From: Eutreptiella sp. 'Long Island Sound 2002' | Taxonomy: Eukaryota > Euglenozoa > Euglenophyceae > Eutreptiales > Eutreptiaceae | Length of the DNA: 64,000 nucleotides | Direction of reading: 5' to 3' | Assembly: GCA_964036045.1 (NCBI GenBank) | Contig: OZ038385.1 | Location: 29,387,306-29,451,305 of the forward strand | In this document: in pieces, positions 3,558 through 41,009 of the stretch | Numbering within the stretch: the first letter of the stretch is position 1 | Layout: every line of letters begins with the position of its first letter | Notes under the pieces: generated by a model | The model's database searches: none | Seen by the model: the letters and a program-made list of their open reading frames with translations, nothing else | What the model was told of the DNA's origin: nothing | Program-made: the position numbers and the translations under genes

Positions 3558-3572
3558 GTAGGTAGGTAGGTA
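3558..3572 (-). repeat. LINE 3' tail, (CTAC)n
   Basis: On the plus strand GTAGGTAGGTAGGTA lies between the target duplication and the first unique LINE sequence, so on the element strand the LINE ends in tandem CTAC units. Short tandem tails instead of poly(A) are known in several LINE clades, such as the I element. Confidence 0.75.
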
Positions 3573-4140
3573 TCTTCGGGAGCTCGGGATGCCTCCTTTG
3601 ACAAAGCAGGAAGAAGGTCTTACCAAGGGGACGTCCTGTCCCTCCCACTGCCCTATGTCAGGTGCCTCTTGAGCCGCTCCCGCATGTGCTTGGGAAGGCA
3701 TTGTCGCGGCCACCCGGTCCATGTGTCCCAAGTGGGAGGGTGTCCCCACATGTGCCCATGGGTAGGGCCACATGCCCCCTCCTTTGGGTGGCAGCTCTGG
3801 GGGCTGCCCAGCCGTGTGGAGTATCTCTCACCACAAGGGGTATTGCTCCCGCTTGTCTACGGTACAACCGCCTCACCCTTGTGGTTCGAGTGGGGGGGCC
3901 ACTCTGCCTGGCAGGCGACCCCCTCCTGGACTGTGTACCGGCTCGCCTGTCACCGGTTGCTTCCATGGCTCCGGGTGACGTTTGCCATGGTCCCCGATGC
4001 AGCCTGGCCGGGCTCAGACCAGTGGCCTTGGAGTACTGCTCCTGCCCCTGGCCCGGTGGGTCGGCCGGGTCGCCCCGGTGTGTCCAACCCATGGGGTGTT
4101 GGTTCTTTCCTGTCCCTCGTCCGCCCTATGTGTGCGCGGT
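3573..4140 (-). other. LINE copy 1 terminal 3' noncoding region
   Basis: This 568-bp GC-rich stretch between the tail and the 65-bp array has no convincing coding frame on the element strand. Open frames on the plus strand here run into the stop-free repeat array and look like composition artefacts. Confidence 0.6.
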
Positions 4141-4873
4141 GTCCCGGGCCTCTTGGCTCCTGTTCACCGGTGTGCTCGCGCGGTTTGTTGTGTCGTGTCT
4201 GCGGTGTCCTGGGCCACTTGGCTCCTGTTCACCGGTGTGCCCGCTCGGTGTGGTGCGTTGCGCGAGCGGTGTCCCGGGCCCCTTGGCTCCCGTTCACCGG
4301 TGTGCCCGCCGGCTGTGTTGTGTTGCGTGTGTGGTCTCCTGGGCCACTTGGCTCCTGTTCGCCGGTGCGCCTGCTCCGTCCGTTGCTTTGCGTGCGCGGT
4401 GTCCTGGGTCACTTAGCTCCTGTCCACCGGTGTGCCTGCTCTGTCTTTTGTTTTGTTTGTGCGGTGTCCTGGGCCACTTGGCTCCTGGTCACCGGTGTGC
4501 CCGCGCGGTTTGTTGTGTTGTGTCTGCGGTGTCCTGGGCCACTTGGCTCCTGTTCACCGGTGTGTCCGCTCGCTGTGTTGTGTTGTGTGTGTGGCGTCCT
4601 GGCCCCCTTGGCCCCCGCTCACCGGTGTGCCCGCTCAGTGTGTTGTGTTGCGTGTGCGGTGTCCTGGGCAACTTAGCTCCTGTTCACCGGTGCGCTCGCT
4701 CGGTGTGTTGCTTTGCGTGCGCGGTGTGCCGGGCCTCTTGGCTCCTGTTCACCGGTGTGCCTGGCCGTGGTGTCTCGTCCCTTTGTTGCCCTCGGTGCAC
4801 GCGCGTGTGCGGTGTCCTGCCCCTCGTGGCGCCCGTTCACCGGTGTGCGCGCTGTGTGCGGTGCGCGTGTGCC
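4141..4873 (-). repeat. 65-bp minisatellite near the LINE 3' end (about 11 units)
   Basis: The core GTCCTGGGCC recurs at 4141, 4206, 4271, 4336, 4401, 4466, 4531, 4596 and 4661, exactly 65 bp apart, then at 4726 and 4814. Each unit contains GCTCCTGTTCACCGGTGTGC. The same unit in the same orientation relative to the element forms the 5' end of both LINE copies. Because 65 is not a multiple of three and the plus-strand unit lacks stops, all three plus frames stay open and translate as a 65-residue repeat; I do not regard these as genes. Confidence 0.9.
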
Positions 4874-5435
4874 ATTGGTGGTTGTGTCCCTCTTCCTCCC
4901 CTCCTAATTTTCGTTTTTCTTTTTGATGGAAAAAAAAAGAAAAAAAAAACAGGGGCGCGCGTACACTGCAGGCACAGGCACGGGCAGCTGGTGCGGCGGT
5001 GCAATAGTGTTGTGTCCTCTGGCGTGTGTCGTCGGTGCTGTGGCGGCGGTCGCGCCCCAGGGGTGCGGCTCGCGCGTCCTGATGTAGACGGGTATGGGCC
5101 AGGGTGGGTTTGGTTAGGTGTCTCTTTGCTTCTGCAGCTGGCTGGTTAGGCGGCTGTGTGGGCTGTGGGTGTGGACTGTGGCTACGTTGTTCCCTCGGCG
5201 GGCCTGGTTAGGAGTCAAGGGTTAGCGGTTTTGGGCTGTGGCTCGGGTTTGATTTGTGTTTGGGTATTGGCTCGGTTAGGCGGTTGCGACGGTAGCGGGC
5301 CTGGGTTCGGTGCCTTTGGGCGTAGTGGTGCCCGTTGTCGTGTGCGTTGGCGTCCTTCGGCGTCCAGTTTGTTTGTCGACTACTGGGCGGGGCCTGGCGT
5401 GGTGCCCCGTGGTGGTGGCTTGCTCGGTAACGGGG
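4874..5435 (-). other. LINE 3' noncoding region between ORF3 and minisatellite
   Basis: There is no convincing gene here. It includes an A/T homopolymer patch at about 4,907-4,950, the only AT-rich stretch in this part. The ORF3 frame continues past its TAA at 5,436 with few stops, but the composition is biased against stops on this strand. Confidence 0.5.
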
Positions 5436-8400
5436 TTAGGTGGCGGCGCCGCTGGCCGGGGGATCAGGCGCGTCGTGTTGTGTGGCGCGCAGGGCTCCTG
5501 GGGTGCTGTGGGTGCCGCCGGTGTCGGTGCGCCAACGCTTGTGGGGTGGTGAGGGTGTGTGTGTGTGCGGGGCTGGGCTTTGAGTGATGTCCCACAGGCG
5601 GATGCCGTCTCGCTGTGTCTCCTGGAGTCTCTCCCGCAGGCGCCTGAGGAAATACGGCTGGTCCTGGGGCGCGGGGAGGTTGCAGGGGTGGACTCCCAGG
5701 GGGTGGAGCGCATCGGCCAGCATAGCTTCCCATGCGGCCTGCGGCATCCACCCCCCCGCCGGCCGGAGGCGGCAGTTATCCACCGACCCCTTGCGGGGCC
5801 GGTGGACCAGGCCCTCGAGGGAGGGCCCTCCCCGGGCCCACTTTCGCAGCTCCCAGAGCTGCGTGTGGGTCCAGCGCTGCCACCACTGTCCCTGGGCGGG
5901 GCCGCGGTAGTGGGCGGAGGAGTGGGTGTTGGTGGGCGTGACGGGGTCGTGGGGACCGGTGGCGGTGGCGGGCCTGGAAGATTTCTCGTAGTCCTGTACC
6001 GTGGGGGTGCGCGGGGAGTGGGGGCGCGACCGGATGTGGACCCGCGGGTGTGCGCGCACGGTCTCCGCCTCGGGGTTGGGTGGGGACTCGCGGCGGCGGC
6101 GGTAGCGGGGCATGCGCTGTATGTGGGCTGACATCGAGGGTTGGTAGGGGGGCGGGGACGCTGCTGGCGGACCCTGGCGTCGTTCTGGCCTGGTAGGGGG
6201 CGGTCCGTGGGCCTGGGGTGCGGGCTTTGAGAGGTGGCGGGACGAGGTGCGTCGTGGTTCGGCCGCGGCGCGCTCCGCTATGAAGGTGGTGGCGGCGGCG
6301 TCGGTGACGACGGGGGGGTGCCGTGCTGGGTGCTGCTGCCTCCGGGCCTGGGACGGCTGGGGCCGAATGTTATAGAGGACGTCCTCGGGGGATTCAGCTC
6401 GCGCTGCCGTTGTGGCGCCAGGCTTGGGCTTGGGTTTGGCCTTGGCTGCGGGTTGCGGTCGTGGCGCGCTGACGGGTTTGGGTGGCTGTTTGGCGGCGGT
6501 CTTGGGTTTCGGCTGGGTCGCGGGTGCAGGCCTCGTCGGGGCTTGGGCCTTGGCGGCGGCGGGGTTGCTCGCGATGGGGACGGGTTTTGGGGCCCGTTTG
6601 GGAGGTGTCCCCCGCGGCTCCGGGGGTTGAGTGCTGGATGAGGACGTGGTGGTGGTGGCGGATGAGGTGGTCGTGGTGGTGGAGGTTGTGGAGTCGGAGG
6701 CGGAGGAGAGGGCTGTGGGAGACGGCAGAGGGCCCTGGGCTTCGGGGGCGGGCGTAGGATGCTGGGTCCTGCAAGTAGCGAGAACGAGGGTGCGGGTTCG
6801 GGCACCGGGCGTGTGAGCGCGCTTTCCCTGGTGACCCGTGCGTGCTGGTGCTGGTGTGGTGGCGTTGTCTCCGCTGTGTGGGCACGTTGGTTACCCGGGG
6901 GGTGGCCATATCTGCTCCAGGACGTGCGGGTGTGTTTGCTGGAGGTAGTCGAGGGTGCGGAAGAAGCATCGCTGGATGCCGGGCATGTCCTCCTCTGTGA
7001 GGTGGGAGTAGTTTTGGGTCGGCGTGTCTGGGCCCCGCCACAGCAGCGCCATGAGGCGGGCTGCCACCATGTATGGGGGGAGCTGTAGGGTGGTGGGGCG
7101 TGGGGGGGTGGGTCCCCTGCGGTTTGGGGGGGCTTCCCTCTGCTGGGGGCGCAGCGTGACCCTCCACAGCCACCGGTCCGTGGGGATCCCCCAGGTCCGT
7201 TGGGTCCACTTGGCGGGGCAATACATCGCCCTACCAAGGCCCTGGTTGCTGCTGCGGATAGAGAGCAGAGTGTCCAGGGATTTGCGTTCCCACGTGCCCC
7301 AGATGTGGGGGTTGTCCGGCTCGTCCCCCCTGGCCTACGTGTCGAGGCCTGGGTTGTGTGGGGGGGGGGCGTAGTCGGCGGGGAGGAGGGAGTTGGTGCC
7401 GTGCACCACCCAGTGGTCAGTACGTGCGTGGTAGTGGGTGGTGGAGAGGGTGTAGTGCAGATTGTACATGAGAGTCATGTACGTGGAGGGGGCTGGCTGC
7501 CGGTCGTCGGGGCCTGGGATGTCCCCCGGGACGTGGTGCCGGAAGTTGCTCAGGGAGGCCATCCGGGCTACCCATGTTTCCCGCTCCCACTCTTTGGTGT
7601 TGTCGGGGTTGGCGCTGGGTGGGGGCGGGGCCATGTTGGGCTCGTGGTAGCGGGTGCGGCCCTGGGTGCTGTCCCGCTCCGGCACGGGGTGTCCGACTAG
7701 GTGTCGCCCCCAGTCGATGGGGGGCACCCAGATCCGGCTTCCCATGGGGGGCGGGCTCTCGCCGTCTGGGGTGGCGCGTGGGGGGCGGTCGTGTCGGGCG
7801 ACGTGGAGGAAGGAGTCGAAGAGGAAGTCTCGGACGCCCTCCCCCAGCGTGGCTGCCTGGATCAGGGTGTTCGCCCGGATGCGCTGGGTGGTGCCGGAGG
7901 TGTGGGGGCGCAGCACCTCCTGGTCCCCGAGTCCCCGGAGGTGCTGCCGTACCGCTGCGGGGTTGTGTAGGGCGTAGGGTTCGACCGGTGCGGCGGCTGG
8001 TGGTGCGGGGTGTGATGGGGGGGGGGGTGTGGGTTAGGGGGGGTGGTCGTCGTTGTCGCGTGTGGGGTCCGGTGATGGGGTTTCTTGTGGCGGTCGCGGG
8101 AGGGGGGATTTGCGGTGGCGTGTGTCGGCGGGGGCATCGACGTCAATTGGCTGGTGCTGGCTGCCGCGTGTTGCGTCCGTGGCCTGGTCTCGGGCGGGGG
8201 GCGGGGGGGGGTGGTGTGGGGGTGGCACTGTTGGTGGTGGGGGGGGCGGGGGTGGGTGTTGTGCTGGCTGGGGGTCTGGGCGTCCCTGTGGGTCGTGTGG
8301 GTGTTGCGTGTGTGCGCCGTGCGGTCCTTGCGGTTCTTGGCTGGTTGTGGTGCCGCGGTGTGGCTGGGAGGCGGCCGCATGAGCGTCCGGGTGGGGCTGT

Positions 8401-8702
8401 GGTCCGTATGTAATGGGTGGCTGCGGGTGTATGGTGCTCGCTGGTATGGGGTGTCGGTGGGGGGGCTGCTGGTGGTGGTGGGGCGCTCCTACTAGGCCCT
8501 GGTGTTGCTGGTGTGCGTGCGCGGCTCCTCGCGGGTCCATGGGGGTGTACCGTGGCTCGTGTGTCGTGGGCCCGTGTAGTTGGGGCGGCGGGTGGTGCCG
8601 GACCGCGTGGTGGTTGTGTTGAGGGTGTGCTGGTTGTGTGTGGTACCCCGGCGATTATGGGTGTGGTGGTAGGGGCTGGTGGTGGTGGAATACGTGATGG
8701 TG
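5436..8702 (-). pseudogene. LINE copy 1 ORF3, C-terminal two thirds, several stops
   Basis: This continues the frame of 22,824-24,227 in phase across the Ty3-B insertion. Stops interrupt it at about 8,655 (TAA), 8,034 (TAA), 7,335 (TAG) and 6,891 (TAA), but I find no frameshift. Readable blocks are: a His/Pro/Gln-rich stretch (8,034-8,540); a more globular segment with WVPPIDWGRHL and a run of aromatic residues (7,335-7,916); a Trp-rich segment starting MYCPAKWTQRTWGIP (6,891-7,226); a Lys/Ala/Pro-rich basic stretch like histone H1 tails (about 6,400-6,600); and a final folded-looking block with GQWWQRWTHTQLWELRKW (5,436-6,134). I recognise no domain. Its position after RNase H suggests an accessory protein of the element. 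Confidence 0.6.
8698..8702. repeat. Target duplication of Ty3-B, left
   Basis: TGGTG directly precedes the 5' LTR and is repeated directly after the 3' LTR at 22,819-22,823. Five bases is typical for Ty3 integrases. Confidence 0.85.
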
Positions 8703-9499
8703 AGTAAGAAAAAGTGCTTTTCCATTGCTTTGAGGCATATTCTAGTTGTATTAGAGATGCACTGAGCATCCATGCATTTTTATCTTAGTATTGGTCCCAC
8801 CAAAACTGGTGATAACACATTTTGACCTATGGAACCAAACACCCAATCAGAATATGGAGTGTACCCCTTAATCCCTTTTCAATGTGAAGTAAATCATCTT
8901 TTCCTGAGTTGACTGAGAACTGACATATCCCAGGCAGAGCCTATGAATTTATCTATGTTTTTCCATGAATACTTATCTGCCCTAGTGGTATGCACCCTAG
9001 GGGGCTAGGCACCTCTTTTTGAGAGGTCCTGGGTTCAATTCCTGGTCAGCCTAGCTAAGTAGGAAGATCCCATGTGACATGGCAGTGACCTCATCGCCAC
9101 ATACAATGCCACCTCAGCACATATGGGACCCAAAACAAAGAGTGCACATCTCCTGAGATGGCACTATGGAGAGAGAGTGACCATGAGGCAGTTTTCTAAC
9201 TCTTTTCCAAAAACATTTCAGCTATCTTTGTGAAGATGCATTCATTTGTGACCTGAGTTGCAGTTTCTGTGAATATCCAATCATCTTTCACTGTTTACAC
9301 TGCAGCCCTTCATGCTTTGATCCTGAATTCTCTTCTCCTTGCATACTTCTGGCTTGGGTTATCCTGGATTGACTCTATTGACTCTATTTCTGCAAACAAA
9401 AGGTTTTCATCATCCAAAACAAGCAGCAGGAAACCCTACAGCAACAGCAAGCAGCAGGAGAAGCAAAAACACAGTGCTGAAACCACTGTAAACTTTTCT
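8703..9499 (+). repeat. 5' LTR of Ty3-B
   Basis: This 797-bp repeat begins AGTAAGAAAA and ends AACTTTTCT. It is the same length as the 3' LTR at 22,022-22,818, with roughly 14 differences seen by eye. The end is fixed by the target duplication after the 3' LTR and by the primer site after this one. Confidence 0.92.
8978..9052 (+). promoter_or_regulatory. tRNA-like segment with B box in 5' LTR B
   Basis: CTAGTGGTATGC and GGTTCAATTCC are placed as A and B box. The run CCTGGGTTCAATTCCTGG resembles the T-arm of Glu/Gly tRNAs, with wobble pairs. An anticodon-arm-like hairpin with loop TTTTTGA lies between them. It is the counterpart of 366-441 and 22,297-22,371. Confidence 0.45.
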
Positions 9500-9510
9500 G
9501 GTAGCAGAGG
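9499..9510 (+). other. Primer binding site of Ty3-B, initiator Met tRNA
   Basis: TGGTAGCAGAGG is exactly complementary to CCTCTGCTACCA, the 3' end of a common eukaryotic initiator Met tRNA. Its first T overlaps the last LTR base. It would prime minus-strand DNA synthesis. Confidence 0.85.
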
Positions 9511-9598
9511 CAGCCTGTCTCTGCGCACCGGCAGCAACCCCGTGCCGTACATCCAGTGCGCTGAGTACGGGCAAATATAAGCTGAAGGGTGAAAGAAG

Positions 9599-12100
9599 AT
9601 GGATCCAGGAAAGGAGGACGCCGACGTGAAGACAGCGCCAGCGCCTGAGGCACCGGCAAGGCCAGCGCCGGGCGCTGTACCTTCGGCGGAGCCCTTACAT
9701 GGGCCAGTGGATGCGGCTGAGGACTCCCTGGATGGGCTTCAGACGGCCTTCGGGGCCCTGTCTGTCGAAGAAGTGGTCTCTCAGCCTCAGCCTGTGAAGA
9801 GAAAGAGAGAGAACGAGAGCGAGAAGGATGCTGGAGAAGGAGCAGACGAAGGAGAGGAGCAAGGGCAAGACCTGGCGAATGTCCCTACCTTCGAAGGCGC
9901 ACCAAGCGCTTCTGGTCTCCACGCACCACCCTCTCCTTTAACCACCACACTCCCAGCCGCTGCAACATCCACTTCCACAACCAACCCACCTATGGCAGAG
10001 GGCACAGGCTTTACTGGCATGCCTCACTACCCCGCCTATGGTATGGGCCCACCTACCACTGCGCTCCATGAGGCAACTACTGCCAGTGAGCCGGTGGCTT
10101 CCAGCTCTGCGCCGCGATGGTATGCGGCTGACTATCCCCACCCACTACACGCTACTGGAACCTATATGGATGTTCCTGGGTATGCTCCTGGGTATGCACC
10201 TGGGTATGCACCCTTGAGTGGGTTGAGGAGAGGACCATAGTCTCTTGGAGGCAGGAGTAGAGGATCGGGAAGATCCTCCAACAGGTCCCTGACGCGGTCG
10301 GAGATCAATGAGGTGCTCCGAGGAGCCACTTCAAAAATCGTGGGCGACCTCACGCAAGAGATCAGGGAGAAACTGGAGCCCCTGATGATCCCGCCCCATG
10401 CGTCACCTACTACGGTGGGAATGTCACCCCACCGAGTACAGGCTAACCACCTGGCGTCAGGGTTGACCAATACCCTGGGGAGCCTGAGGAGCCGACCGAT
10501 GCCGACTCCTGCAGCCATACCGAGAAGTCCATTCGTCCCGAGAACGGCCCAGCCGCCCTACAGCCACGTGACAAACTCGACGAGGGCCGAGCTGGACCTG
10601 CTGGGGCTGACAGCCTTGAGGGCTATGGTGGACGTAGAGCCTTATGGCTCTAGTGATCTTGGCGGAGACCCCTCCGATGATGAGCCGCCGTCGATGGATT
10701 CTTCTTCGCCCTCAGATGACGATGACCCTGAGGACCCCGAGGACCCCAAGGGTAAGAAGAAGAAGAAGAAGAAGAAGAAGACCCGACGCCCTGAAGGACG
10801 CCGGACTCAGGAGGCGAAGGCTATTGCCACCTCCAAAATCGTGGTGAACCTGCCTGAGTTCACAGGCAAGGACCTCAGCGAGTTCGCTGAGAACTTTGGT
10901 CGGTTCCTACGATTGACCGGCCAAACCCACGCTAGTGGGCGAGTGAAGTGCGATCTGCTCCTGCAGTGCTGCAAGACCAAGTACCTGGAGAAGCAGGTCA
11001 GGCAGATCGTGACTAACTCCGCCACCTTTACCGATGTGTTGGTTGCCCTGGAGAGGCAGTACCCGACCTATGAAACCGACCTCTCCATCAGGGTCGAGAT
11101 CCAGAGCCTGCCCGTGCTGCCCAACAACCCAAAACCTGGCAGGGTATCCGAGCTGTTGGCTGATCTGGATCACTGGGCTGGACGACTGACGCCCGGTTCC
11201 TACAGCAGCGACGACCTGCTGTTCTGGTTGGTGGCCAAGCTCCCTCGAGAGCTATGGGACGAGTGCCGTTTGACGGCGGAGCGCAAGTCCAGATCCCTCC
11301 ACTACGAGGATCTGTGCGTGCTACTCCTGGAGCTGGCGCTGGAGAGGGAGAGCGACCAGCACTTGAACAACTACCGTCCTGGTGGTGGAGGTTCTGGAGG
11401 CAAAGGGTACCAAGGGTCCCGACCTGGGCAGGGGACTACCCCCAAACACGCCCACGCCCGTACCATGGAGAACGTGAAGGAGCTATTCTGGTGTGATGCC
11501 AGAGACGAGCAGGGCCACCTGCAGCACGCCTCTGACTGCGAGCAGCGAGACTGCTTCGTAGTCCAGGGGAAGCAGCAGGAGAACAACACCGGCGCTAAAG
11601 CGAAGCTGCCGGATCATTACCGGTGCACCATCACGTGTGCATTCTGCGGTGAGCGGAAGCACTACGAGGATGGGTGCTACCATAAGCAACGCCTATCGGC
11701 GAAGCTTAAAGGGGAAGATCCTGGCAAAGGCTCAAGCAGAGGTGGAGGCAAAGGCAAAGGCAACGACTCCGGCAAGGGCAAGTCGAAAGGACGTGGTCAA
11801 GGTGGTCAAGACAAGGGTCAAGGTGGACGAGGAGGAGGCGCTAACCGCCAGCCCGACAACAAGAACAAGGACAAGAACGGAGGCAACCCCAACCCTAATC
11901 CAGGGGGGAACTCCGAGCCCTCTGGAGGGCAATCTGGTCCTACCACACGCTCACAGACGCAGGCCCAGCAAGAACAAGGAGCCAAGCGTGAGCATGAAGG
12001 TGGTGATGACGGCAACGCTAAGAAGAGGAGCCGTTTCATGAGGATGGCCCGCAAATTGCGGAACAAGGGGTTCGAGGTGACCTGTCCCGCGGAGTTCTGA
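9599..12100 (+). pseudogene. gag: Ty3-B gag polyprotein, one nonsense codon
   Basis: This is the capsid and nucleocapsid precursor, starting at ATG 9,599 about 100 bp after the primer site. TAG at 10,238-10,240 replaces a CAG of Ty3-A; otherwise the frame is open to TGA 12,098. The N-terminus is acidic and Pro/Thr-rich, with a short tandem PGYA repeat at about 10,170-10,210. The capsid-like region spans about 10,820-11,380, the zinc knuckle CX2CX4HX4C lies at about 11,635-11,676, and a Gly/Lys-rich tail follows. There is no frameshift. The stop is followed by CGG and an in-frame pol. Confidence 0.88.
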
Positions 12101-12141
12101 CGGGGACGCTCTGGTGGCACCCAAGACCTGGTGTTTTGGGT
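12098..12141 (+). promoter_or_regulatory. Candidate UGA-CGG readthrough site between gag and pol
   Basis: The gag TGA is followed by CGG, and the pol frame continues in phase. No ATG occurs in pol until about 12,246, after the DTGA protease motif, so initiation at pol could not make an active protease. A 6-bp hairpin (ACCCAA at 12,119-12,124 with TTGGGT at 12,136-12,141) lies downstream. UGA-CGG is a known leaky context in several plant RNA viruses; its use here is inferred. Confidence 0.6.
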
Positions 12142-14535
12142 ACGTATCCGTCTAGGGGGACGCGAATACCTTGGGGTACTGGATACTGGCGCCACAATAT
12201 CTATAGTGGCCAAGAAAATTTTACCTTGTGGGAGCCTGAAGAACACCATGACCACTGCCGCTATACGCATGGGGGATGGACATGTGGTGCACAGCTGCGG
12301 GGACTGTGAAGTGGAGGTACCTATGGGCTCCAGGACTATCGCCCATCGTTTCTATGTGATGGACACTGATGCCTTCGACTTTGTACTGGGGACTGACTTC
12401 TTCGTGCAGCACGCCCAGATACAATCCCTGACGCTGCAAGCGCCTTACCTCCTCTACGTGGACCACGGCAGTGGCAGAGAGTCTGTGCCACTGGAGCAGT
12501 CGGAACATACCTCGAGTTACCTGAGACTATCGAAGGAGGAGCCCTCTAACATGATGGCGGCCTCCAAAACTGAGGACTATCAACTATTGGGGGAAGTCCT
12601 AGACCAAGGTCTGAAGGAGTTGGGTTACTCTCGAGAAGACCTGAGTGTGGAGTTGTTCGCCAGCGACAAGCAGCATGTACTGGACCTTTACTGCAGCAAG
12701 GGGAAGAACTGCAGCTACAAATTTTACTGGCCCTCTTTCGGGATGGCCTACGGGGACCCCAGGTTCAGTGAACTGGGGAAGGTGCTGACCAAGGTGGCCT
12801 TGGAACGTTCCCGTATGGTCCTGTGTTCCCCCGATTGGGGAGCCCATGGGGGCAACGAGTACTGGCGAAACCTCCTGGACAGGCTGACTATCAGCTCTGT
12901 TCGTTTGCCTGATGAGGCCATCTACGTGCCTCTGGGACGCAAGACGCCTATTGGGAAGCCCGGATGGGGGAGTATGCTCAGCGTGGTGGACGGAAGTCTT
13001 ACCACCATCCCCTGGGAGGACCTGGACGCGACTCTGGTCCAGGCTATACAACGAGAAAGCGATGGACTCGCCTTGGGTGATATCAAAGATCGCCTACGAC
13101 CTCAAGATGCTGTTCAGACTACACCCGGAGGAGATGAGTACGTCGTGACTGACACCAACGCCCCCAACTCTCCCTGTCATGTACCTGTTCCTGATTGAGT
13201 CTCTGAGTGTGGACTATCTGAGCTACCTAGCTCTATCCACTCAGATGACGAAACTGAGCACGACGCCTTCTTCGTGCAGACCTGTGTGGAGGAAGTGGAG
13301 AACGCCGAGTACGTTGCCCCACTAAAACCCCTACTCTCCATGAGGGTGGAAGACCCCGTGGATGAAGAGCTGGACCCTCGATCCAGGCTCAGGGAGTATG
13401 TGGATTCCAAGAGGAAGTTGGTGGCGAAAAAGCTATGCTACGCGAAGCCTACCCGCAGCTCATGGCCACTGAAGCAAGGACGTATGGGAGACCTATCCCA
13501 ACTGGAGGAGGACCTCGAACAGAAGATCACCACCTGGCAAAGGGAGGTAGATCTCAAGCTCATGAAGAGCGTGTGGGGCGCCCATGTGAGGACCCCAGAG
13601 GAGGACGACCTCTCGGACGAATGTGTATGTGAACCCCCTCGAGCGTGCCTATGTTGCCATCGTCCACCGGAGATGGTTGAACAAGACCTTCTATATGCCT
13701 ACCAAGGGCTGAAGGACACTACCACGGGCGAAGAGTCGGTGGAGGACAACCTCCCGACATCTATTCAGGGGGCGAGCAACTTACACTCTGACGAGGACAT
13801 GGAGGACAAGCTCAAGGTATTGGACCCGCGGGTACAGAAGCTTATAAGGACCTATCTGGAGGTGTTCGGGGAACTACCCCCTCCAGCCTCATGTGACAAG
13901 CTGGTACAGATGGACCTCAAGCTGAAACCCGAGTTCGTGGGTCACAAGATCCGGAGGAGACCCTATCCAGCTCCTAAAGAGCAGGCCGACGAGATCGAGC
14001 GACAGATACAAGAATGTATCGACGCTGGCCTAGTCCTGGAGTACAAGGACGGGGACTACCCCCTACACTGCAGCCCCTGTTTCCTGCTGGCTAAACCTGG
14101 GTCTACAGCCAAACGGCTGGTAGTGGACTATGGAGAGCTGAACAAGAAGACGCTGAACCACTCAGGGTCCATTCCCAATATGGAGTCTACCCTGGAGAAG
14201 ATAGCCTCCTGCCGCTACAAGACCAAGATGGACAAGCGAAGCGGATTCTGGCAAGTGGACCTGACGCCCAACGCACAGGAACTACTGGCCTTCATCACCC
14301 CTCAGGGGAGGGTGTTCAAGTGGAAGGTCATGCCGTTTGGCGTGGCTAACGCACCCGCTCTATTCCAAGAGCTGATGAACAAGATCTTGTCCATCCTACG
14401 AAGGAGACCTAAGGTGCAGGAGCTCATATCCCGTGGTGCCCAGATGGAGGCTCACATCGACGATGTATGCCTCGGGACCAATACCCAGGAGGATCACCTA
14501 ATCCTCTTGGGTGAGTTCTTTGCGGTCTGCCAGGA
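12101..14535 (+). pseudogene. pol: Ty3-B pol part 1: protease and reverse transcriptase
   Basis: The protease has VLDTGATISIV at about 12,176-12,208 and FVLGTDFF near 12,390. A linker follows, with a TGA at 13,196-13,198 where Ty3-C has a Glu codon. The RT has KMDKRSGFWQV (motif A Asp), MPFGVANAPALFQ (motif B) and HIDDVCLGT (motif C, His in place of the usual Tyr) at about 14,225-14,475. The frame is cut at 14,535 by the DNA transposon and resumes at 17,267. Comparison with Ty3-C shows the junction loses nothing apart from a 2-bp duplication. Confidence 0.88.
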
Positions 14536-30857: not shown

Positions 30858-31472
30858 TTAGGGTGAGAAGTGCGATGGCGCGTTTGGGTCCAGGTGTGGT
30901 GTGCGTCGGCTCATCTGGCGGCCGTCCGTGGGATGGGGTGTGGGGGGGTGGCGCTTCTGGAGGGGGGATGGTCCCACCGCCAGGTGCTCGACAAGGTGTA
31001 GCGGTATGGCGTGGTGGCGGTCCGCTGCGGGCAGGAGGTAGGGGTGTGGGTCCCCGGGTATAGTGCCGAGGTATATGCCCCCCCTGTAGGTAGGGGTGGG
31101 CAGGGGTTGCTGCAGAGCGCCTGCGCATGGTAGCGCGCACCGGGGGTTGCAGTGGGTGAATTGGGCTGTTATGGGGTGCGGTACCGCGTACACGGTGAAG
31201 GGCCCTACCGCGCGCTGGATGTGGCGGGGGATGATGGTGCGGAGGTCCGCTACCTGTGCCGTGCGTCTTTGGCCATAGTATGTCCAGAGTGTGTCCTCCA
31301 GTGCCATTTTGGGGCGTAGCTTGCGGGCCAGTAGGTTCAGGGTGCTTTTGCGGGTGGCCTCGGTGACGGTGCCGGGTGCAGCGTTAATGCGTGGGAGCAG
31401 GTGGTTTTGGTGGTGTGCCGCGGCCTGTTTGCAGGCTGTGTGGAGGGCCATGCTGTCGGCGGGAGGGGGCAC
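30858..31472 (-). pseudogene. LINE copy 1 ORF1 middle part
   Basis: Homologous to about 57,880-58,440 of copy 2: LNLLARKLRPKMALEDTLW, VGPFTVYAVPHPI, and a Cys-poor version of the THCNPRCALPCAG cluster (Phe replaces the first Cys present in copy 2). The frame is lost at the 3' side by an indel near 30,930. Confidence 0.65.
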
Positions 31473-31632
31473 GTGGTGGGTGGGCCTTTTGCGCGGGGTC
31501 GGGGCGACGTGTAGTGGATGCTTCCATGCCGGACGCGGGTGGAGCTGCGGTGGCTGGAGGCCAGGGTAGGTGGTGAAGGTGTATATGGTGACGGGGGAGC
31601 GCTCATGCGTGGCCTGGAGGTAGTAGTGGTCG

Positions 31633-32676
31633 CTACCCGTGTTGTGGGTGACGATGACGTTTGGTGTTGGTATGTCTTAGTGGATTGCGGTATTGGTGAG
31701 TTGTTTGGTGACGCGTGCCGTCGTGTCCCCCGTTTTGGGCGCGGTGTCGTGGGGCACGAGGATGTGGACGGCCCACGCATCGTTGGCAGGGAGGTTGAGG
31801 TCCGGTAGGGTGGGATGAATGGGGCGTCCCCGAAAGTGTGCGAAAGCTGGGTTGTGGCGTGCCGCCGTTTCTTTGATGATGGACGGTGCCCATTTGGGTG
31901 GCGCCCCAACCTGCTGTGAGGTCTGGGCCGATGCCAGGCTGGTCTGCCGGTGGCTGCAGGCCCCCTTCTGGCGCGGGTTGGTGCCAAGATAGGGTGTAGC
32001 CCTTTTGCGTGTTATCGTGGGGGCTGTGCACGAGGCCCTGGTTGTTGGAGATGGCGGTCTTGAGGGCTTCCGCTGCCTCGCGGTGGAGGATGCGCGTGTA
32101 GGCCCAGACTCCGGTTGGGGGGGCCATCCCGGTGTGGGATTCGGCCGTGGTGGGGGCCGGCTCGAGGGTGTGACTGGTGAAGGAGGGTCTGTGCAGCCCA
32201 TCGTGCAGGGAGGCGCACATGTGTGCCCACCTGTCTGCCCATCCCTGTGGGGCGCTTCCTGTGTCTGCCCCTGTGGGCAGTCGTACAATGACCACGTGCC
32301 AGGGGTGTGACCCCGGTACTACGGTGGGGGGCGTGGTGTGCTCGTGAGCGTGCAGCCATACTGCGGTGTCTGCGTTCGCCGTCACGTAGTCCTCTCCCTC
32401 CGCTGTGTGGACGTTTTCGACGGCGGCCTCTCCCTCTAGGGTGAGGAGGAGGTGTGTGCCGGGGGGCTGCGTGTGCGTCTCCGCGTCCCGGAGCCACAGG
32501 TACGTGAGCGCCACGGTGCCGGGGAGGATTTCCCCCCACGTGAAGGTGCCTTCGGGTGATGCCCACTGCAGGGGCAGTGTGCGGCGTCCCCGCGAGTGGC
32601 ATGGTAGTCGTGGGGGAGGTGACGCTTGGTGAGCCGGTGCGGCATGCATTCGTTGATGGCTGTGGGGGGGTCCCAA
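31633..32676 (-). pseudogene. LINE copy 1 ORF1 N-terminal globular part
   Basis: Contains LPLQWASPEGTFTWGEILPG, TYLWLRDAETHTQPPGTHLL and VVIVRLPTGADTG, intact through TGVWAYTRILHREAAEALKT. A 32-bp deletion relative to copy 2 near 31,905, between short CAGC repeats, then shifts the frame. No recognised domain. Confidence 0.65.
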
Positions 32677-34334
32677 TTACATTCCTCCGGGGGGGGTGCG
32701 TCTGCGTCGTCCTCCTGGGGCTGGGCTAGCGGCAGCGCCTGTGCATTGGGTGTGGCGTCGGGTAATCCGCTGTGTGTGAGGATGTAGAAGCCCTCGGGGG
32801 TGAGTTGGAGGACGATGTGCCACTTCGCCGTCTGCTCTGGGGACCACTGGTGGGGTCCGTCCTGCGGTCGGCCGAGGGTGACTTGGTGGCCCCATCTTCA
32901 GCTCTGGTAGGCGAGGAGGCTGAGGATGGTGTCTTGCTCCGGGTCCTCCACGCTTTACACGTACGCCGTCATGTCGGTGACGTCCACGGCGTACTCTTCC
33001 TCCCATTCTTGTGTGGGGGTGCCTGGAGAGGGGGGGGGCGGTGGTGTACCCATGGAGCCCCGGCCCCGTGACGTCGGGCAGGTCGTGCTCGAGGGACGCC
33101 CGGTACTCGGCGGGGCCTTTGCTGGCTTCGTGGGTGGGGTGGTGGCGCCGCAGGGCGTTGGACAGGTGTGTCCAGGGCGCCCGCTCAAGGAAGGGGGGCC
33201 GTGGGGGGGCATTATGCGGGCCGGGGTCCGCGGGGTCGCTTGCTGCGGGCTCGAGCTCCGGCGGGGTGAGGTCCATATGATGCTCCGTGTCCTCTGTGTG
33301 TTGGAGCTCCAGCTCTAGCAGGCTGTCAATGTCCAGGGCCATGGGGTCATCGTGGGTGTTCACGTGTTGGGGTGCTGCTTCATGGCACGGTGGGCGTGTG
33401 ATGCTGGTGCTCGGGGCACATGCGGCGGCCGGTGCGGGGTCGTGCGCCGGTGTTCCGGGAAGCGCGCCGTTTGGCGTGGTTGTGGTGTCTGGCTGCTCAC
33501 TGCTGACCGTCCTGGCCGGTGGTGTTGCCCCTGTGTGCGGTTCAGGTTGTGGCCGGTGGTGGGTGTTGAGCTAGCGTGAGGTGTGCGGGGTTTCCAGGGG
33601 TGGTGCCGGGGGGGTGGGGTGCGGAGTCGGCGTGGCGCGGCTTCGTTCCTGTGTTGGTGGGCTGTGGTGTCCCATGTCCCCGGCAGGGGGAGGGGGGTGC
33701 GGTGTGGTATGGTGGTGCTGGGTTGTGTGGTGGCCTTACTGGTGGGGGGGGCAGCATGTCCAGGTCTGGTGGGGCGGGTTGTTGCATGTGGCTGGTCCTC
33801 TGGCGATGTGGGGCAGCCCCGCGCGGTCTCTTGGTCGTCCTCCTGGCGTGTTTCAGTATGTGGGCCGTGCGGGGTCGATGTGGCGTTGGGCCTTGGGTCC
33901 CCTGGGGCGGGGTGTGTCGGACCCGAGTGTCGCAACCAGGGGGGTGTGGTCGTGTGGTGCTTTGGGGTGTCGGCCCACCGTTGAGTGGGCCCAGTGGTGC
34001 GGGGAGCGCCGTGTATGGGCCACGCGCGGGCTATTGCGTTTGCGGGGTCCGCGGGTCGGTGGGTCGCGGCATCTTGGGCGTGTTGTGGCCCCGGTGCGGC
34101 GCCCGCGGGTGGTGAGTGGCGGTGTGTGGCTGGGGTGTGTCGTTTCCACGGTGGGGGGGGGGCTATGTGCTCGGGTGTGGGGTGGGCCCGTGGTAGGCTG
34201 CCGGCTGGTAGCGGGTGTCGGGGCCTCACTGTGGGTGGGTCTTCCGCGGTGTCCCCTTGGTGCGTCCTGTGGTGGTCTCTGGTCGGCTGGCTGAAGGGGG
34301 TTTTTGGAGTGTACCGCATCCATGGGGGCACCAT
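32677..34334 (-). pseudogene. LINE copy 1 ORF1 N-terminal Pro/His/Thr-rich region
   Basis: MVPPWMRYTPKTPFSQPTRD starts a long Pro/His/Thr-rich stretch (34,334-33,360). A slightly offset frame then gives an acidic block, MALDIDSLLELELQHTEDTE (near 33,330), and DMTAYV before the globular part. Both copies encode these blocks, but indels separate them, so the true start is uncertain. Confidence 0.5.
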
Positions 34335-34861
34335 TGTATGTTGGCGCGCCGCAGCGGGGGGTGCGGTGGGTTGTGGGGCTGGGGCTTGTGTCGGTGTCGT
34401 CCGTGTGGTTGGCGGCGGTGCGTTGTGTGTCGTCCTCGGCGGCTCCTCATGGTGGTCTGTTGTGGTGGTGCCTGGGGGGTGGTCTTGGGCTTGGCGGTTC
34501 CTGGGAGGGTGCGGGACATGCAGGGTCGGGCTGGCTGGGGGGGGGGGGCGTGTGTGGGCCTGCTCTCCCCGCGGTCTCTTCCTCTGCCTTTCCCTTGCTC
34601 CTCTGTTTTTGCTTGCTTGTTGTGTTTTTTTTCTTTTTTTGCGGGGGGGGGTGGCTGGGGTGCGGCTTTTTTGATGCTGTGCGTGGGTGTGGGTGTGTGC
34701 CGGTGCCGCTGCTGGTGTGGGCGTGGGTGTCGTGGGGGACGGGGGTCGGGTGGCTGTTGCGCTCTGGGTTCCCTGCGTGTGCGCCGGCCCCCAGGCTTCC
34801 GGTTTCCAGGGCGCCGGTCAGGGGGGTGCTGACGGCGGGTGGTTAGCGGCAGTGGTGGCAT
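34335..34861 (-). other. LINE leader next to ORF1, Pro/Arg-rich open frame
   Basis: An open minus-strand frame (34,861-34,226) includes EEQGKGRGRDRGESR and a T-rich stretch at about 34,610-34,640 on the plus strand. Copy 2 has the same KGRGRDRGE block near 54,375 in a different phase relative to its downstream ORF. It may be the ORF1 N-terminus or 5' UTR. Confidence 0.35.
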
Positions 34862-37800
34862 GGCGCTTGCGTGGGTGGTCGTGGCTCCTGGGTAGTGCCT
34901 GGGTGGCGTGGCCGGGCGCGGGCGTGCGTGTGGGTGTGTTCATGGCGTGGGCTGATGGGGTAGTGGGCAGTGTGGGCGTGGCTGGTTTGTGTGGGTGTCG
35001 GGTATGTGTGCGCCAAAGGCGCGGTGGGTTGGGCTGGGGCACTGCGGGCGATGCAATGGGTGGAGGAGATGCTGGTGACGCCTACGGGGGGGGTGCTGTA
35101 GGCGTCGAAACGGGTTGGTGTTGTTGACGTGGGTGCTTCAGGTGATGCGCCGGGCGGCGACGGGGTTGGTGACGCTGATGGTGTCATAGGTGACGGGGCG
35201 GGCGCTCGGGGGGGGGCCTGCGGCTCCGGTGGTAGCTGTAGGTGGTGCAGTGGGTGGTGGCATAACTGGTGATGTCGGCGGTGAGGGTGCTGCAGGTGAC
35301 GTAAATGGTGAGGGCCCTGCGGGTGATGTCATGGGTTGTGGCGATGTTGATGTGGGTGTTGCAGGTGGTGTGCCGGTTGGTGGTGCCGCTGGTACTGTCC
35401 TTGCGTAGGGTGGTGCTGGGGGTGCTGCATGCGATGGTGTCGTCGGTGGTGTCGACGGTGAGGGTGACGCAGGCGATGCACCGGGTGACGGTGAGGCCGG
35501 TGTGTGCCGTAGGTGACGCGCTGGGAACGGGTGGTGGAGGGCTGGAGGGGGGGTTGCCATTGGTGCAACGGGCGATGGTGGCGTTGGTGCCGCAGGTGGT
35601 GGATCGGGTGATGGTGTTGTTGGTGATGCCGACGGCGGCGGAGGGTGTTGCGGCTGACGGGCGTTTGCGAGGCTGATGGTGCCGGTGGCGAGGGTGTTGC
35701 ATGTGGTGCAACGGGCGATGGGGACGCCGCCGGCGCCGACGGTGAGGAGAGCAGTGAGTGGTGGCGTCGCTGGTGATGCCGAAGGCGATGGTTGCTGTAG
35801 GCGTTGTCACGGGTGATGGTGACGTACGCGGCGTCCATGGCGGGGGAAGGTGTTGGGGGTGATGCTACGGGTAGTGGCGCCGCTGGCGACTCTGATGACG
35901 GTGAGGGCGTGGTGATGCATTGGGGGCGCCGCTGGCGGTGTCGATGGGGAGGGTGCCGTAGGTGACAGAGGACGTGGGGGCTGGCGGGGCGTCGGGCGAC
36001 CGTGAGACCGGTAATGCCGACGATAGAGTGAGCGCTGCAGGTGACGTCGCTGGCGGGGGCGCCGCGGGTATTGGGGCAAGCGGAGGCGCTGGTGGCGGTG
36101 GCATTGTGCCGCTAGGGGTGGAATGGGCATCTGTGATGCCGGTGTTGTTGACGGTGAGGGTGATGTACCGCTGGCGTTGCCGGGAGGGTGTCACGGGTGG
36201 CGCCGTGGGTGGTAGAGTCACCGGTGGTGCGGACGGTGACGGTGCCGCCGGTCGTGTTGATTGTGAGGGTTGTTGTTCCAGTGGCGGTGGGGCTGGTGTG
36301 CGCTACTGGTGGTGTGGCGGTCCAGGTGGTGGTGAGGCTAGGGGCGCCGTCGTGGGGGTTGCTGGCAATGCGGTGGGTGATGGGGGAGCTGCGGGTGGTG
36401 TAAGTGGTTGTGGTGTCCTTGGTGATGGTGATGGCGAGGGTGCCGCATGTGGCGGACCGGGTGACGTTGGTGATGGCGATGGTGATGCTAGTGTCGCCGA
36501 TGGGGAAGGTGTTGTATGGGATGCAACGGGTCATGGCCGTGGGCTATGCACCGGGCGGTGGTGCTGCTGGTGGTGTCGTCTGCGAGGGTGCTGTGGGGAG
36601 CAACAGGTGAGGGCACTGCGGGTGCCATATGCTGTAATTGTTGATGGTGTCGCTGGCGGTGCCAGTGGCGGTTGTAGGCGCCGCACCGGGCGTTGGGGGT
36701 GCCTCAGGTGACGTGGTGGGTGGTGGTGTTGCTGGCGATGTCGATGGTGACGGTGCTGCAGGCGATAAGGGTGGGACGGCGCTGTTGGCGGTCTATGGTG
36801 TGGGTGCTGCGGAGGTATTGCAGGTGAGGTGTCGGGTGAACGGTGGTGCGTCTGGCAACGGTGTCGTGAGTGCTGTCGATGGGAAGGCTGTTGTTGGTGA
36901 TGCCTTGGGTGCCGCCTGTGATAGGCTGGTGGTGAGGAGAGGGCGATAGTGCGGTCGGGCGGCGTGATGGTGGGTTCTCTGGTGTGGCTGAGGCTGGTGA
37001 CGCGGTCCACTCTCTCTACAGGGCTGGGACCAAGACGCCCGATGGTGGTTGTTGAGGCAGGTGACGTGCGCGGCCGGTGGGTGGTGGGTGTGGTCGGTGG
37101 TGTGGTGTCCGATGCGGGCAGTTGGGGTCGGGTCGGCGTGGGCTGGGTGGTGGTGGTCGTTGTGGCTGGACTGCTTGGTGGTTGCAGCGGTGGTGGACGG
37201 TGGGCCTAGGATGTTCTAGGGTGGGGCTGGTGTGCGCTGTTGGTGGTGTGGCTGTCCAGGTGGTGGCGAGGTTCGGGGCGCCGTCGTGAGGGTTGCCGGC
37301 GATGCGGTGGGTGATGCGGGAGCTGCAGGTGGTGTAAGTGGTGGTGGACTGGGCGACGTTGGTGATGGCGGTAGTGAGCGGGCGATGGCGATGCTAGTGA
37401 TGCCGATGGGGGGGGGTGTTGTATGGGATGTAACGGGTGGCGGCCGTGGGCTATGCACCGGGTGGTGGTGATGTTGGTGGTGTCGTCGGCGAGGGTGCTG
37501 TAGGCAGCAACAGGTGAGGGCACCGCGGGTGCCATATGCTCTAATTGTTGATGGTGTCGCTGGTGGTGCCTGTGGCGGTTGTAGGCGCCGCAACGGGCGC
37601 TCGGGGTGCCTCAGGTGACGCAGTGGGTGGTGGTGTCGCTGGCGATGCCGATGGAGACAGTGCTGCCGGCGATAAGGGTTGGATGGCGCTGTTGGCGGTC
37701 TGTGGTGTGGGTGCTGCAGAGGTATTGCAGGTGAGGCGCCGGGTGAATGGTGGTGCGTCTGGCGACCGTGTCGTGAGTGCTCCTGACGGGGGAGGGTGTT

Positions 37801-39394
37801 GTTGGTGATGCCTTGGGTGCCGCCGGTGAGAGGCTGGTGGAGAAACAAGGGCGATAGTGCGGTCGCGCGTGATGGTGGGTTTTCCGGTGTGGGTGAGGCT
37901 GGTGATGCGGTCCACTCTCTCTACAGGGCTGGGACCAAGACGCCCGATGGTGGTTGTTGGGGCAGGTGACGCGTCCACTCTGTGGTGCCTGGTGTGTGTG
38001 GCCCGTGCCGGGTATTCTTGGTGCGCTTGTTGGCGTGGGTGTGTTGACGGCGGTGGTTTGTCTGCCTGTCTGCCCGTGGAGTCGGTGCCGGCGTTGGGCT
38101 TTTGCCTGTGTGTGTGGTGGTGGCGCCGGGGGTCGGTGCGCTGGGCGCTTGGTGGGCGTGGTTGGGTGCGGGTGCTCGTGTTTGTGTATACTTGGTGCGG
38201 ATTGCGGGGGGTCTGTGGGCGGCGGGTGTGCTGTTGCCCTGCGTGTGGCGGTTTGTGTTGTCTGGTGGAGCGTGGCCGGGCTGTGCTTTGCGTGGATGGT
38301 GTGGGGCCTGGTCGGCGTGGGTGGTGTAGGTGTGGGTGTTTGGGGATGGGTGCTGGTTGTGGGCGTGTCGTCCGCGCGGTGTGGTCGGGCGTGATGGTGG
38401 TGTCGCTGGCGACTTCGATGGTGACGGTGCTGCAGGTGATAAGTGTCGGACGGCGATGTTGGCGGTTACTCATGTGGGTGCTGTGGGTGGTGTTGAAGGT
38501 GGGGGTGTTGCAGGTGTGGTGCCGGGTGGATGGTGGTGTGCCTGGCGACGGCGTCGTGAGTGCTGTCAGGGGCGAGGGTGTTGTTGGCGATGCTTTGGGT
38601 GGCGGTGCCGCCGGTGAGAGGCTGGCGGAGAGGAGAGGGCGGTATAGTGCGGCCGGGCGTGATGGTGGGTTCTTCGGTGTGGGTGGTCAGCAGGAGGTGG
38701 GTGCGGCTGGTGGTGTGGTGCTCGGTGTGTGTGGCCAGTGCCGGGTATCTTAGGTGCGCTTGTTGGTGCGGGTGTGTTGACGGCGGCGGTTTGTCCGCCT
38801 GTCTGCCCGTCGAGTTGGTGCCGGCGTTGGGTGGCTGCCTGTGTGCGCGGGTTTGTGCCGTTGTGTGTGGCGGTGGTGGTGGGGGTCGGTGCGCTGGGCA
38901 CTTGGTGGGCGTGGTTGGGTGCGGGTGTGCGTGTGGACGTGTACTTGGTGTGGGCTGCAGGGGGTCTGCGGGCGGCGGGCGTGTTGTTGCCGTGTGTGTG
39001 GCAGCTTGTGTTGTCTGATGGTGCGTGGCTGGTGTATGCTCTGCGTGGATGGTGCCAGTGTGGGTGCTTGGGGTTGGGTGCTGGATGTGGGTGCGTCGCC
39101 TGCGCGGTGTGGTCGGGCGTGATGGTGGGTTCTCTGACGTGTGTGGCCGGCTGGTGGCGGGTGTGGTCGGGCCGGTGTGGGCTGGGTGGTGGTGGTGGTT
39201 GTGGCTGGACTGCTTGGTGGTTGTGGTGTCGGTGGGCGGCCCTGATGATGGGCCTCAGGTGTGTGGTGGCGGGTGGGCGTGTAGGGTGGTGGTGGCGGGA
39301 TGCTGTGTCACTGCGGGTGGTGTTGGGTGTGGTACCGTTGGGCGTGTTGTTTGCGATACCCTCTCACCCCTCCGGGTGGCGCGGGCCCGGTGGT
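34862..39394 (-). repeat. Low-complexity GC-rich leader of LINE copy 1, with internal duplications
   Basis: Degenerate GGTGATGGTGACGGTG-like repeats occupy 4.5 kb; the corresponding part of copy 2 is about 2 kb. A segment of about 0.8 kb at roughly 36,290-37,080 recurs at about 37,215-37,985 (offset 905-934 bp), and about 390 bp at 38,000-38,400 recurs at 38,730-39,120 (offset about 733). On the element strand it translates to Thr/Ile/Asp-rich text such as HDITRRALTIYVTCSTLTAD, but the phase is not consistent between copies. Confidence 0.7.
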
Positions 39395-39845
39395 CCGGTA
39401 GCCCGTCCGGCAGGCAGTGCGTGCTTGCCGGGTGCTCACGCGTCCCTCCGAGCGGCAGCTGTTCGGTAGCCGGCAGGGGCTGGGATCACTGCCGGGTGCA
39501 CACACTTCCCTCCGGACGGCAGCTGTTTCGTAGCCGGCAGGGGCTGGGTTCACTGCCGGGCGCGCACACGTCCATCCGGACGGCGGCTGTTTCGTAGCCG
39601 GCAGGGGCTGGATTCACTGCCGGGCGCACACACGTCCATCCAGACGGCGGCTGTTTTGGTAGCCGGCAGGGGCTGGGTTCACTGCCAGGCGCAAACACGT
39701 CCATCCGGACGGCGGCTAGTTCGTAGCCGGCAGTGGCTGGGTTCACTGCCGGGCGCACACACGTCCGTCCGGACGGCAGCTGTTTCGTAGCCGGCAGGGG
39801 TTGGGTACCCTGCCGGGCGCACACACGTCCATCCGGACGGCGGCT
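39395..39845 (-). repeat. 64-bp tandem array in LINE copy 1 leader (7 units)
   Basis: Units are spaced 64 bp, with CACGTCC-type cores at 39,441, 39,505, 39,569, 39,633, 39,697, 39,761 and 39,825. Each unit can form the hairpin CCGGCAG-loop-CTGCCGG. The unit number is the same in copy 2. Confidence 0.88.
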
Positions 39846-40363
39846 GTTGCGCTGTGGGGACTGCGGGGCTTGGACTTGTTCTTGGCGGCTCGTTCGTCGT
39901 CGGGTCTGGGTGTTTGCCGTGGTGTTGTCGTGTTTTGTGCCGTGGTGCGTGCTGGTGGGCGGTGCTGCGTGTGTGCCCTGCCTGGCCTGCGTGTGGCGCG
40001 CGCTCCTTGCCCGCCTGTGCTGTTGCGCAGGCGCGGGATACACCCTCTCTCTCGTGGGCCCGTTTGGTTCCATGGCGGGCCCTGTTGGCGCCCGGCTGTG
40101 GCCCGGTGCGCGGCAGTGGGGTGTGTGTATGTTTGGGGGTGGGGGGGGGGTTTGGTTCCTCTCCCCTCGCCTTCCCCGCCTTGTCCCTCCATCCCTTTTC
40201 GCCGGCCTGCCCTGCCTGCCTACCCTCTTCCTACCCGCTGGGTTGGCCTTGGCTCGACGGTTGGTCTTGGTCGTCTGACATGGTGTTTCTTTCCTGCAGG
40301 GCGGCGTGGGCTGGGTTCGTTTTGGGGGCGGGTTGCTCGTGTGGTGTGCCGTGCCGCGTGTAT
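39846..40363 (-). other. LINE copy 1 spacer between the two arrays
   Basis: This 518-bp GC-rich spacer is closely matched in reverse complement by 51,216-51,718 of copy 2. No convincing gene on the element strand. Plus-strand open frames here are continuations of the stop-free repeat frames. Confidence 0.6.
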
Positions 40364-41009
40364 GGTGTCCTGGGCCTCCTGGCTCCTGTTCACCGGCGTG
40401 CATGCCCTGTATGTGGTGTTGCGTGTGCGGTGTCCTGGGCCCCTTGGCTCCTGTTCACCGGTGTGCACGCTCTGTGTGTGGTGTTGTGTGTACGGTGTCC
40501 TGGGCCTCCTGGCTCCTGTTCACCCGTGTGCACGCTCTGTGTGTGGTGTTGCGTGTACGGTGTCCTGGGCCTCCTGGCTCCTGTTCACCGGTGTGCACGC
40601 TCTGCGCGTGGTGTTGCGTGTACGGTGTCCTGGGCCTGCTGGCTCCTGTTCACCGGTGTGCACGCTCTGTGTGTGGTGTTGCGTGTACGGTGTCCTGGGC
40701 CTCCTGGCTCCTGTTCACCGGTGTGCACGCTCTGTGTGTGGTGTTGCGTGTACGGCATCCTGGGCCTCTTGGCTCCTGTTCACCGGTGTGCACGCTCTGT
40801 GTGTGGTGTTGCGTGTACAGTGTCCTGGGCCTCCTGGCTCCTGTTCACCGGTGTGCACGCTCTGTGTGTGGTGTTGCGTGTACAGTGTCCTGGGCCTCCT
40901 GGCTCCTGTTCACCGGTGTGCACGGTCTGTGTGTGGTGTTGTGTGTACGGTGTCCTGGGCCTCCTGGCTCCTGTTCACCGGTGTGCACGCTCTGTGAGTG
41001 GTGTTGCGT
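40364..41009 (-). repeat. 65-bp minisatellite at the LINE copy 1 5' end (about 10 units)
   Basis: GTCCTGGGCC cores recur every 65 bp from 40,367 to the element end. The last unit is cut mid-repeat at 41,009, where the target duplicate begins. Copy 2 has about 24 units and starts at another point of the unit, consistent with variable 5' ends within the array. Confidence 0.9.

Follow-up and report, generated by a model that had tools for sequence, protein, structure and literature searches.

A non-LTR retrotransposon with an apparent unit length of at least 23 kb in the euglenophyte Eutreptiella

How processive target-primed reverse transcription can be is commonly regarded as setting the limit to the size of long interspersed nuclear elements (LINEs), and the locus considered here raises the question of whether a LINE of more than 23 kb can move as one unit. 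It lies in a stretch of 64,000 nucleotides (the window) of the genome of Eutreptiella sp. 'Long Island Sound 2002' (assembly GCA_964036045.1, 2.28 Gb in 2,205 contigs; contig OZ038385.1, here C8:29,387,306-29,451,305), for which a preliminary description made from the sequence alone had proposed one oversized LINE, and not a single chimeric locus, at positions 3,558-41,009. Our analysis agrees, and we put at roughly 0.9 the probability that this is a non-long-terminal-repeat (non-LTR) retrotransposon whose whole unit of at least 23 kb moves as one RNA; the same unit is seen at six further loci and in the continuation of a second window copy. The element is a LINE by its combination of reverse transcriptase (RT) and endonuclease, target duplications of variable length, a fixed 3' end and the absence of LTRs.

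Two window copies and their insertion sites

Copy A occupies 3,558-41,009 on the minus strand and is split by Ty3-B (8,703-22,818, plus strand), an LTR retrotransposon, delimited by self-comparison of the window, whose LTRs are 98.3% identical and which has TGGTG on each side. Subtraction of Ty3-B and one 5-bp TGGTG from the locus (37,452 - 14,116 - 5) leaves 23,331 bp, several times the length of an ordinary LINE and matching the 23.3 kb first put forward. Target duplications at 3,542-3,557 (GTATTGGAAACTGGAG) and 41,010-41,025 (GTACTGGATACTGGAG) are alike at 14 of 16 positions, and the 16-bp duplication originally claimed is further borne out by an unoccupied site. The host of copy A is an older element, Ty3-A (91-3,555, 41,010-43,546 and 48,517-49,643 in the window self-comparison), and Ty3-B, as a second copy of it nested within copy A, supplies the empty site, being uninterrupted at window position 12,177, which corresponds to the insertion point.

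In the same self-comparison the two ends of copy A have only diverged 65-bp arrays in common, without LTRs. The leader (33,343-41,009, 7.67 kb) opens with a 5' 65-bp tandem array of about 10 units (40,356-41,009), inside which the 5' end of the insertion falls, and also holds a 64-bp tandem array (39,426-39,848) and diverged tandem modules (36.3-39.1 kb). At the opposite end, the 3' untranslated region (UTR; 3,558-5,435) comprises, besides another 65-bp array (4,129-4,761), the tail, a simple repeat as had been reported, though better written as (ACCT)n following GAAGAT than as (CTAC)n.

Copy B (49,642-64,000, plus strand) is inverted relative to A and continues past the window; with x denoting element coordinates, from 0 at the 5' end of A to 23,331 at its 3' end, a 30-kb continuation shows that B extends from its 5' 65-bp array (49,642-51,205, 24 units) to x 18,562, where it is cut by another Ty3. 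A and B are colinear, as the preliminary description held, with 94.1% identity over 8,868 columns and approximately 88% in two leader stretches. Because B is uninterrupted at the point where Ty3-B splits A, and ORF2 leads into ORF3 without interruption at four other loci, the parts of A on either side of Ty3-B belong together. A 2,416-bp leader stretch of A (x 2,958-5,376) is missing from B and from two other loci (C7 and C11, below); its interpretation as an intron was rejected, since GT-AG is absent from its borders in A. B in turn has a 304-bp insert resembling a short interspersed nuclear element (SINE) that A lacks, at 54,841-55,144; its end is (CAGGT)n and its direct repeats, of 13 bp, read CCACCGTGGAAAC.

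Both copies start inside the 65-bp array, with 3 and 2 bases in common with the target as judged by eye, and both are broken. The RT active site reads FADD in A and FADH in B, and a UAG inside ORF2 at x 14,317 (26,692 in A, 62,647 in B) is sense in three other copies; since this UAG is common to A and B, the two may descend from one already broken source copy.

The same unit at other loci

The search of the host assembly for further copies that had been suggested at the outset was run in part, with 40 matches per probe scored, the window's own copy included. First-look candidates numbered 3,659 for a 5' probe, 3,765 for an ORF3 probe and 1,720 for a 571-base 3' probe, these being loose counts and not copy numbers; the best stretches among the 40 scored matched at 93-100%, 92-100% and 97-100%, respectively. 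Six loci of 30 kb each were picked from the scored ORF3-probe matches, so that ORF3 is present in all of them by choice. The element extends from x 11,601 to 23,331 in C1, from 14,575 to 23,331 in C18, from 6,561 to 23,329 in C6, from 9,049 or earlier (the edge of the stretch) to 23,331 in C4, which has a Ty3 inside, from 735 to 23,329 in C11, with gaps at 2,958-5,376 and 6,271-16,558, and from 14,959 to 21,947 in C26, which is interrupted and in which the 3' end was not seen. The common 3' end is reached in five of the six and ORF2 passes unbroken into ORF3 in four (C1, C18, C4 and C6), whilst GAAGAT(ACCT)3-5 followed by unlike DNA marks the 3' end in nine loci besides A (C6 included).

The 5' ends, seen in five copies, are scattered (x 735, 6,561, 11,601, 14,575 and 14,959 of 23,331). 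Copies consistently ending immediately before ORF1 or directly behind RNase H, named in the preliminary description as the sign of separate elements, were not what we found: in the copies read at the ORF3-selected loci no 5' end lies just after RNase H (approximately x 16,050), and no copy read ends at the start of ORF1 (x 7,667), the nearest 5' end being 1.1 kb before it, in one copy. Flank alignment at four loci identified target duplications abutting both ends in three, of approximately 96 bp in C1, 100 bp in C6 (the length up to a gap in the alignment) and approximately 330 bp in C11, and because these duplications abut, the three 5' ends are taken as true insertion ends. The stagger of the target cuts, from 16 bp in A to approximately 330 bp, is very variable. 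The C11 copy (C11:12,753,000-12,782,999, L097-L099), which carries the longest of these duplications, has lost ORF1 and the greater part of ORF2 but retains the leader, ORF3 and the 3' end, and perhaps moved in trans. In C26 (L109-L111) the interruption measures 4.1 kb and has approximately 128 bp of LINE on both its sides. Pattern searches of viral and prokaryote contigs found no relatives.

Copy A is itself probably 5'-truncated, making 23.3 kb a minimum length. Among seven other 5' loci (L082-L088, the best-scoring of the 5' probe matches), six have shared sequence upstream of the 65-bp array, which is approximately 2.0-2.9 kb long in six and at least 3.1 kb in L087, where it runs to the end of the stretch. 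In L086 and L082, the two examined with a repeat finder, tandem monomers of 166 bp (with 83-bp halves) lie upstream of the array. Because shared sequence lies beyond the array elsewhere, an intact element is likely longer than A, and we estimate that intact elements may reach approximately 26 kb.

The region around the window copies is a dense nest, with Ty3, DIRS, DNA transposon-like and SINE-like sequences. Ty3-A hosts LINE A on the minus strand, LINE B on the plus strand and a DIRS-type element (43,547-48,516) with inverted ends and RVT_1 and Phage_integrase reading frames; Ty3-B contains, at 14,536-17,266, a DNA transposon-like insert whose 27-bp inverted ends are 96% complementary, with 2,677 nt between them.

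Reading frames, domains and the ORF1/ORF2 junction

A codon model trained on ORF2, together with GC content by codon phase, favours a single frame, which runs from the end of open reading frame (ORF) 1 through ORF2, ORF3 and ORF4 and, in A, continues on the far side of Ty3-B; no frame is favoured by either measure in the leader or the 3' UTR taken whole, the exception within the leader being a GC phase skew at 53.2-53.9 kb in B and 35.2-35.8 kb in A. ORF1 (approximately 1,265 codons) starts at an ATG in GACCCCATGG, at 33,342 in A and 55,966 in B, and runs to UGA-CGG; it is broken in A (29,544-33,342) and carries frame-breaking indels in B (55,966-59,802). ORF2 (approximately 1,771 codons) is likewise broken in A (24,228-29,543) and represented in B by its first part (59,803-64,000). 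In A, ORF3 (approximately 1,066 codons) is divided at the Ty3-B insertion into a first part placed by codon phase (22,824-24,212) and a second (6,891-8,702), and ORF4 (approximately 484 codons; 5,436-6,890), for which the coding evidence is weaker, lies beyond it.

The stops that close these frames are kept amongst copies: UGA-CGG of ORF1 in 4/4 compared, the two UGAs ending ORF2 in 7/8 and 8/8, the UAA of ORF3 (x 19,995) in 7/7 and the ORF4 stop in 9/9. Three further stops in ORF3 occur in A alone, and one more in both A and C18. Because closing stops are conserved and internal ones are not, we recognise four ORFs in one frame; a single polyprotein of 4,600 codons was considered and dropped for the same reason. 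The extra length had been attributed to the leader, a large ORF1, terminal arrays and a third frame after RNase H, of which all but the last hold, the supposed third frame being ORF3 and ORF4, both in the frame of ORF2. The coding signal changes frame within ORF1 in A as well as B, and within ORF2 in A (near 28 and 26 kb); none of the 10 A/B indels from 55.9 kb onwards has a length divisible by three, and these shifts are read as decay.

Differences between A and B by codon position are 16/8/32 (p 0.0003) in an N-terminal stretch of ORF1, 43/35/46 (p 0.46) in its remainder, 46/31/56 (p 0.03) in the first part of ORF2 and 19/16/24 (p 0.44) in the next. Across copies, variable sites in ORF3 number 179/185/233 (p 0.012), with an excess at third positions. 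No homology between ORF3 and ORF1 was found.

Pfam identifies both RVT_1 (E 5.5e-13) and Exo_endo_phos, the APE-type endonuclease (E 2e-5), in copy B, and RVT_1 in copy A as well; the five PDB matches (E 5e-4 to 2e-3) are four entries named LINE-1 ORF2 and one RNA-directed DNA polymerase. ORF2 in A further contains two zinc-like motifs and an RNase H motif at approximately 24,956-25,430, with a CCHH motif between this and the RT. The D-E-D-H-D residues listed for RNase H in PMC4640811 are present, and an expression for these, written after the sequence had been seen, matches this ORF only and 0 of 200 shuffle sets; with a profile built from at most 79 RNase HI sequences the candidate ranks first of 540 segments, but at an E of 0.27. 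A PDB search with the region returned unrelated hydrolases only, and structure models of it (predicted local distance difference test, pLDDT, 40) and of part of ORF1 (pLDDT 33) were too poor for fold search. Even at E 10, no Pfam family matched the segments scanned, which came from ORF1, ORF3 and the RNase H region. An RNase H domain in ORF2 is likely, and of the single APE-RT-RNase H set originally described, APE and RT are upheld by Pfam and RNase H by motif only.

At the ORF1/ORF2 junction (59,800-59,826, plus strand, in B), UGA-CGG is followed after an 8-nt spacer by the hairpin GGGCCG-GACA-CGGCCC, which is present in A, B and C4 and has one wobble pair in C6. In type II readthrough, according to PMC11166343, UGA is followed by CGG or CUA and, approximately 6-12 nt on, by a stem-loop; all four copies show this arrangement, and it suggests that ORF1 and ORF2 would be expressed in the manner of gag and pol through a type II signal. 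The gag of Ty3-B also closes with UGA-CGG (12,098-12,103) and that of Ty3-A with UGA-CAG (3,464-3,469), pol being in the same frame in each.

Alternative explanations and known elements

Several observations weigh against a single 23-kb unit or against parts of the account given here. No copy in the loci read could be traced without a break from 166-bp monomers through to the tail: locus C7 runs from the leader into ORF1 and is then broken after x 7,962 by LTR-element-like DNA, and the guessed 3' sites of two loci with 166-bp monomers held similar LTR-element-like DNA and no LINE sequence. C18 was the one locus of the four tested in which flank alignment found no target duplication, and a later break may therefore account for its 5' end; the same may hold for C26. 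The Exo_endo_phos score is 24.9 in B, against a cut-off of 24.5, and at 23.2 falls below it in A. Another frame is favoured in windows of ORF3 and ORF4 (8.7-8.0 and 6.9-6.2 kb), no near in-frame AUG is present for either ORF in A, and comparison of the copies gives no significant bias by codon position for part of ORF1 (p 0.42), ORF2 (p 0.18) or ORF4 (p 0.26). Finally, the stability of the junction hairpin is unexceptional for its composition (z -1.0 and -1.9).

Could the length instead be that of an ordinary-sized LINE with transduced neighbours, a 5' satellite and a 3' host gene, in one lucky copy? LINEs do carry downstream DNA, and the scanned pieces of ORF3 match no Pfam family; however, many loci carry ORF3, ORF4 and the 3' end region (92-98%) and share an identical 3' end, the ORF2 frame carries on into ORF3 and ORF4, and no end behind RNase H was seen in the copies read. 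The common 3' end largely refutes transduction, which we regard as very unlikely. A chance composite of separate nested elements would fit a region crowded with Ty3, DIRS, DNA transposon-like and SINE-like inserts, yet the order of parts repeats at other loci with different 5' ends, three of them with their own target duplications, and this explanation seems to us slighter still. Least probable of all is an assembly artefact: long arrays do assemble poorly, but such an error would have to reproduce the target duplications, the order of parts that eight loci have in common (six besides A and B) and the intact empty site in Ty3.

A more serious competitor accepts the LINE as genuine and concerns translation only: reinitiation, not readthrough, would account for the translation of ORF1 and ORF2, with UGA-CGG there by chance. 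Termination-reinitiation is known or proposed for the LINEs SART1 and L1 (PMC5972666), CGG is the next triplet after 52 of the 1,511 UGAs in the window (3-4%) and after 8 of the 190 in the LINE pieces, and an AUG overlaps the first end stop of ORF2, albeit in a frame without coding signal. On the other side, 47 codons of ORF2 precede its first AUG in copy A, the frame of ORF2 continues that in which ORF1 ends, and UGA-CGG, again in frame, also occurs in Ty3-B of the host. We give reinitiation somewhat less than an even chance.

For a LINE whose whole unit moves as one RNA, a mechanism can be outlined. Transcription would start in the tandem 5' monomers (the 166-bp and 65-bp arrays), by analogy with mouse L1; ORF1 would be translated, and part of the ribosomes would pass UGA-CGG to yield an ORF1-APE-RT-RNase H fusion. 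APE would then nick the target and RT begin at the GAAGAT(ACCT)n end, with a second nick tens to hundreds of bases from the first; many cDNAs would stop early and others end within the 5' arrays, whilst ORF3 and ORF4 may supply additional proteins.

Mouse L1 has tandem 5' monomers in numbers that vary between copies. The element resembles it in this copy-dependent number and differs in having two successive arrays and a multi-kb leader, with the 65-bp unit recurring at the 3' end. LINEs combining APE with RNase H comprise the I group, plant L1, Proto1 and Dualen/RandI in the list of PMC4640811. The present element shares with them APE, RT and a likely RNase H (by motif) in one ORF, target duplications, a simple-repeat tail and 5' truncation, but is at least 23 kb long, with an ORF1 of approximately 1,265 codons, two further ORFs and arrays at both ends. 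Dualen/RandI pairs APE with a restriction-like endonuclease; here APE and the CCHH motif are present, and the window ORF pieces scanned gave no Pfam match to a restriction-like endonuclease domain. Drosophila TART, according to PMC5537684, similarly has a long 3' UTR and a repeat common to both ends; unlike TART, both window copies lie inside a Ty3 element. The terminons of bdelloid rotifers, according to PMC6431247, are telomeric Penelope-like elements of up to 40 kb without endonuclease. They too are giant retroelements with extra ORFs, but the element described here is an APE-type LINE and so falls outside them; Rfam gave no match at gathering score in the window, the hammerhead ribozyme being among the features of terminons. 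The junction agrees with the type II readthrough of PMC11166343 in stop, next codon and hairpin spacing, the difference being that it is known here from sequence and occurs in a LINE.

A literature search of open-access papers found no LINE of comparable size. We tentatively suggest, at rather less than even odds, that this is the largest LINE yet described: an intact element would measure approximately 26 kb or more and combine a stack of two 5' monomer arrays with four ORFs in the same frame, a gag-pol-like readthrough at UGA-CGG that the host Ty3 elements also have, and second-strand nicks as far as approximately 330 bp from the first. With relatives at many loci, and at least one case (copy A) in which a 23-kb template was copied over nearly its whole length, the element provides a test of the template length that target-primed reverse transcription can reach. 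Whether such great length is made possible by RNase H in cis, a highly processive RT or the extra ORFs thereby becomes open to testing, as does the question of whether retrovirus-like stop readthrough operates in LINEs.

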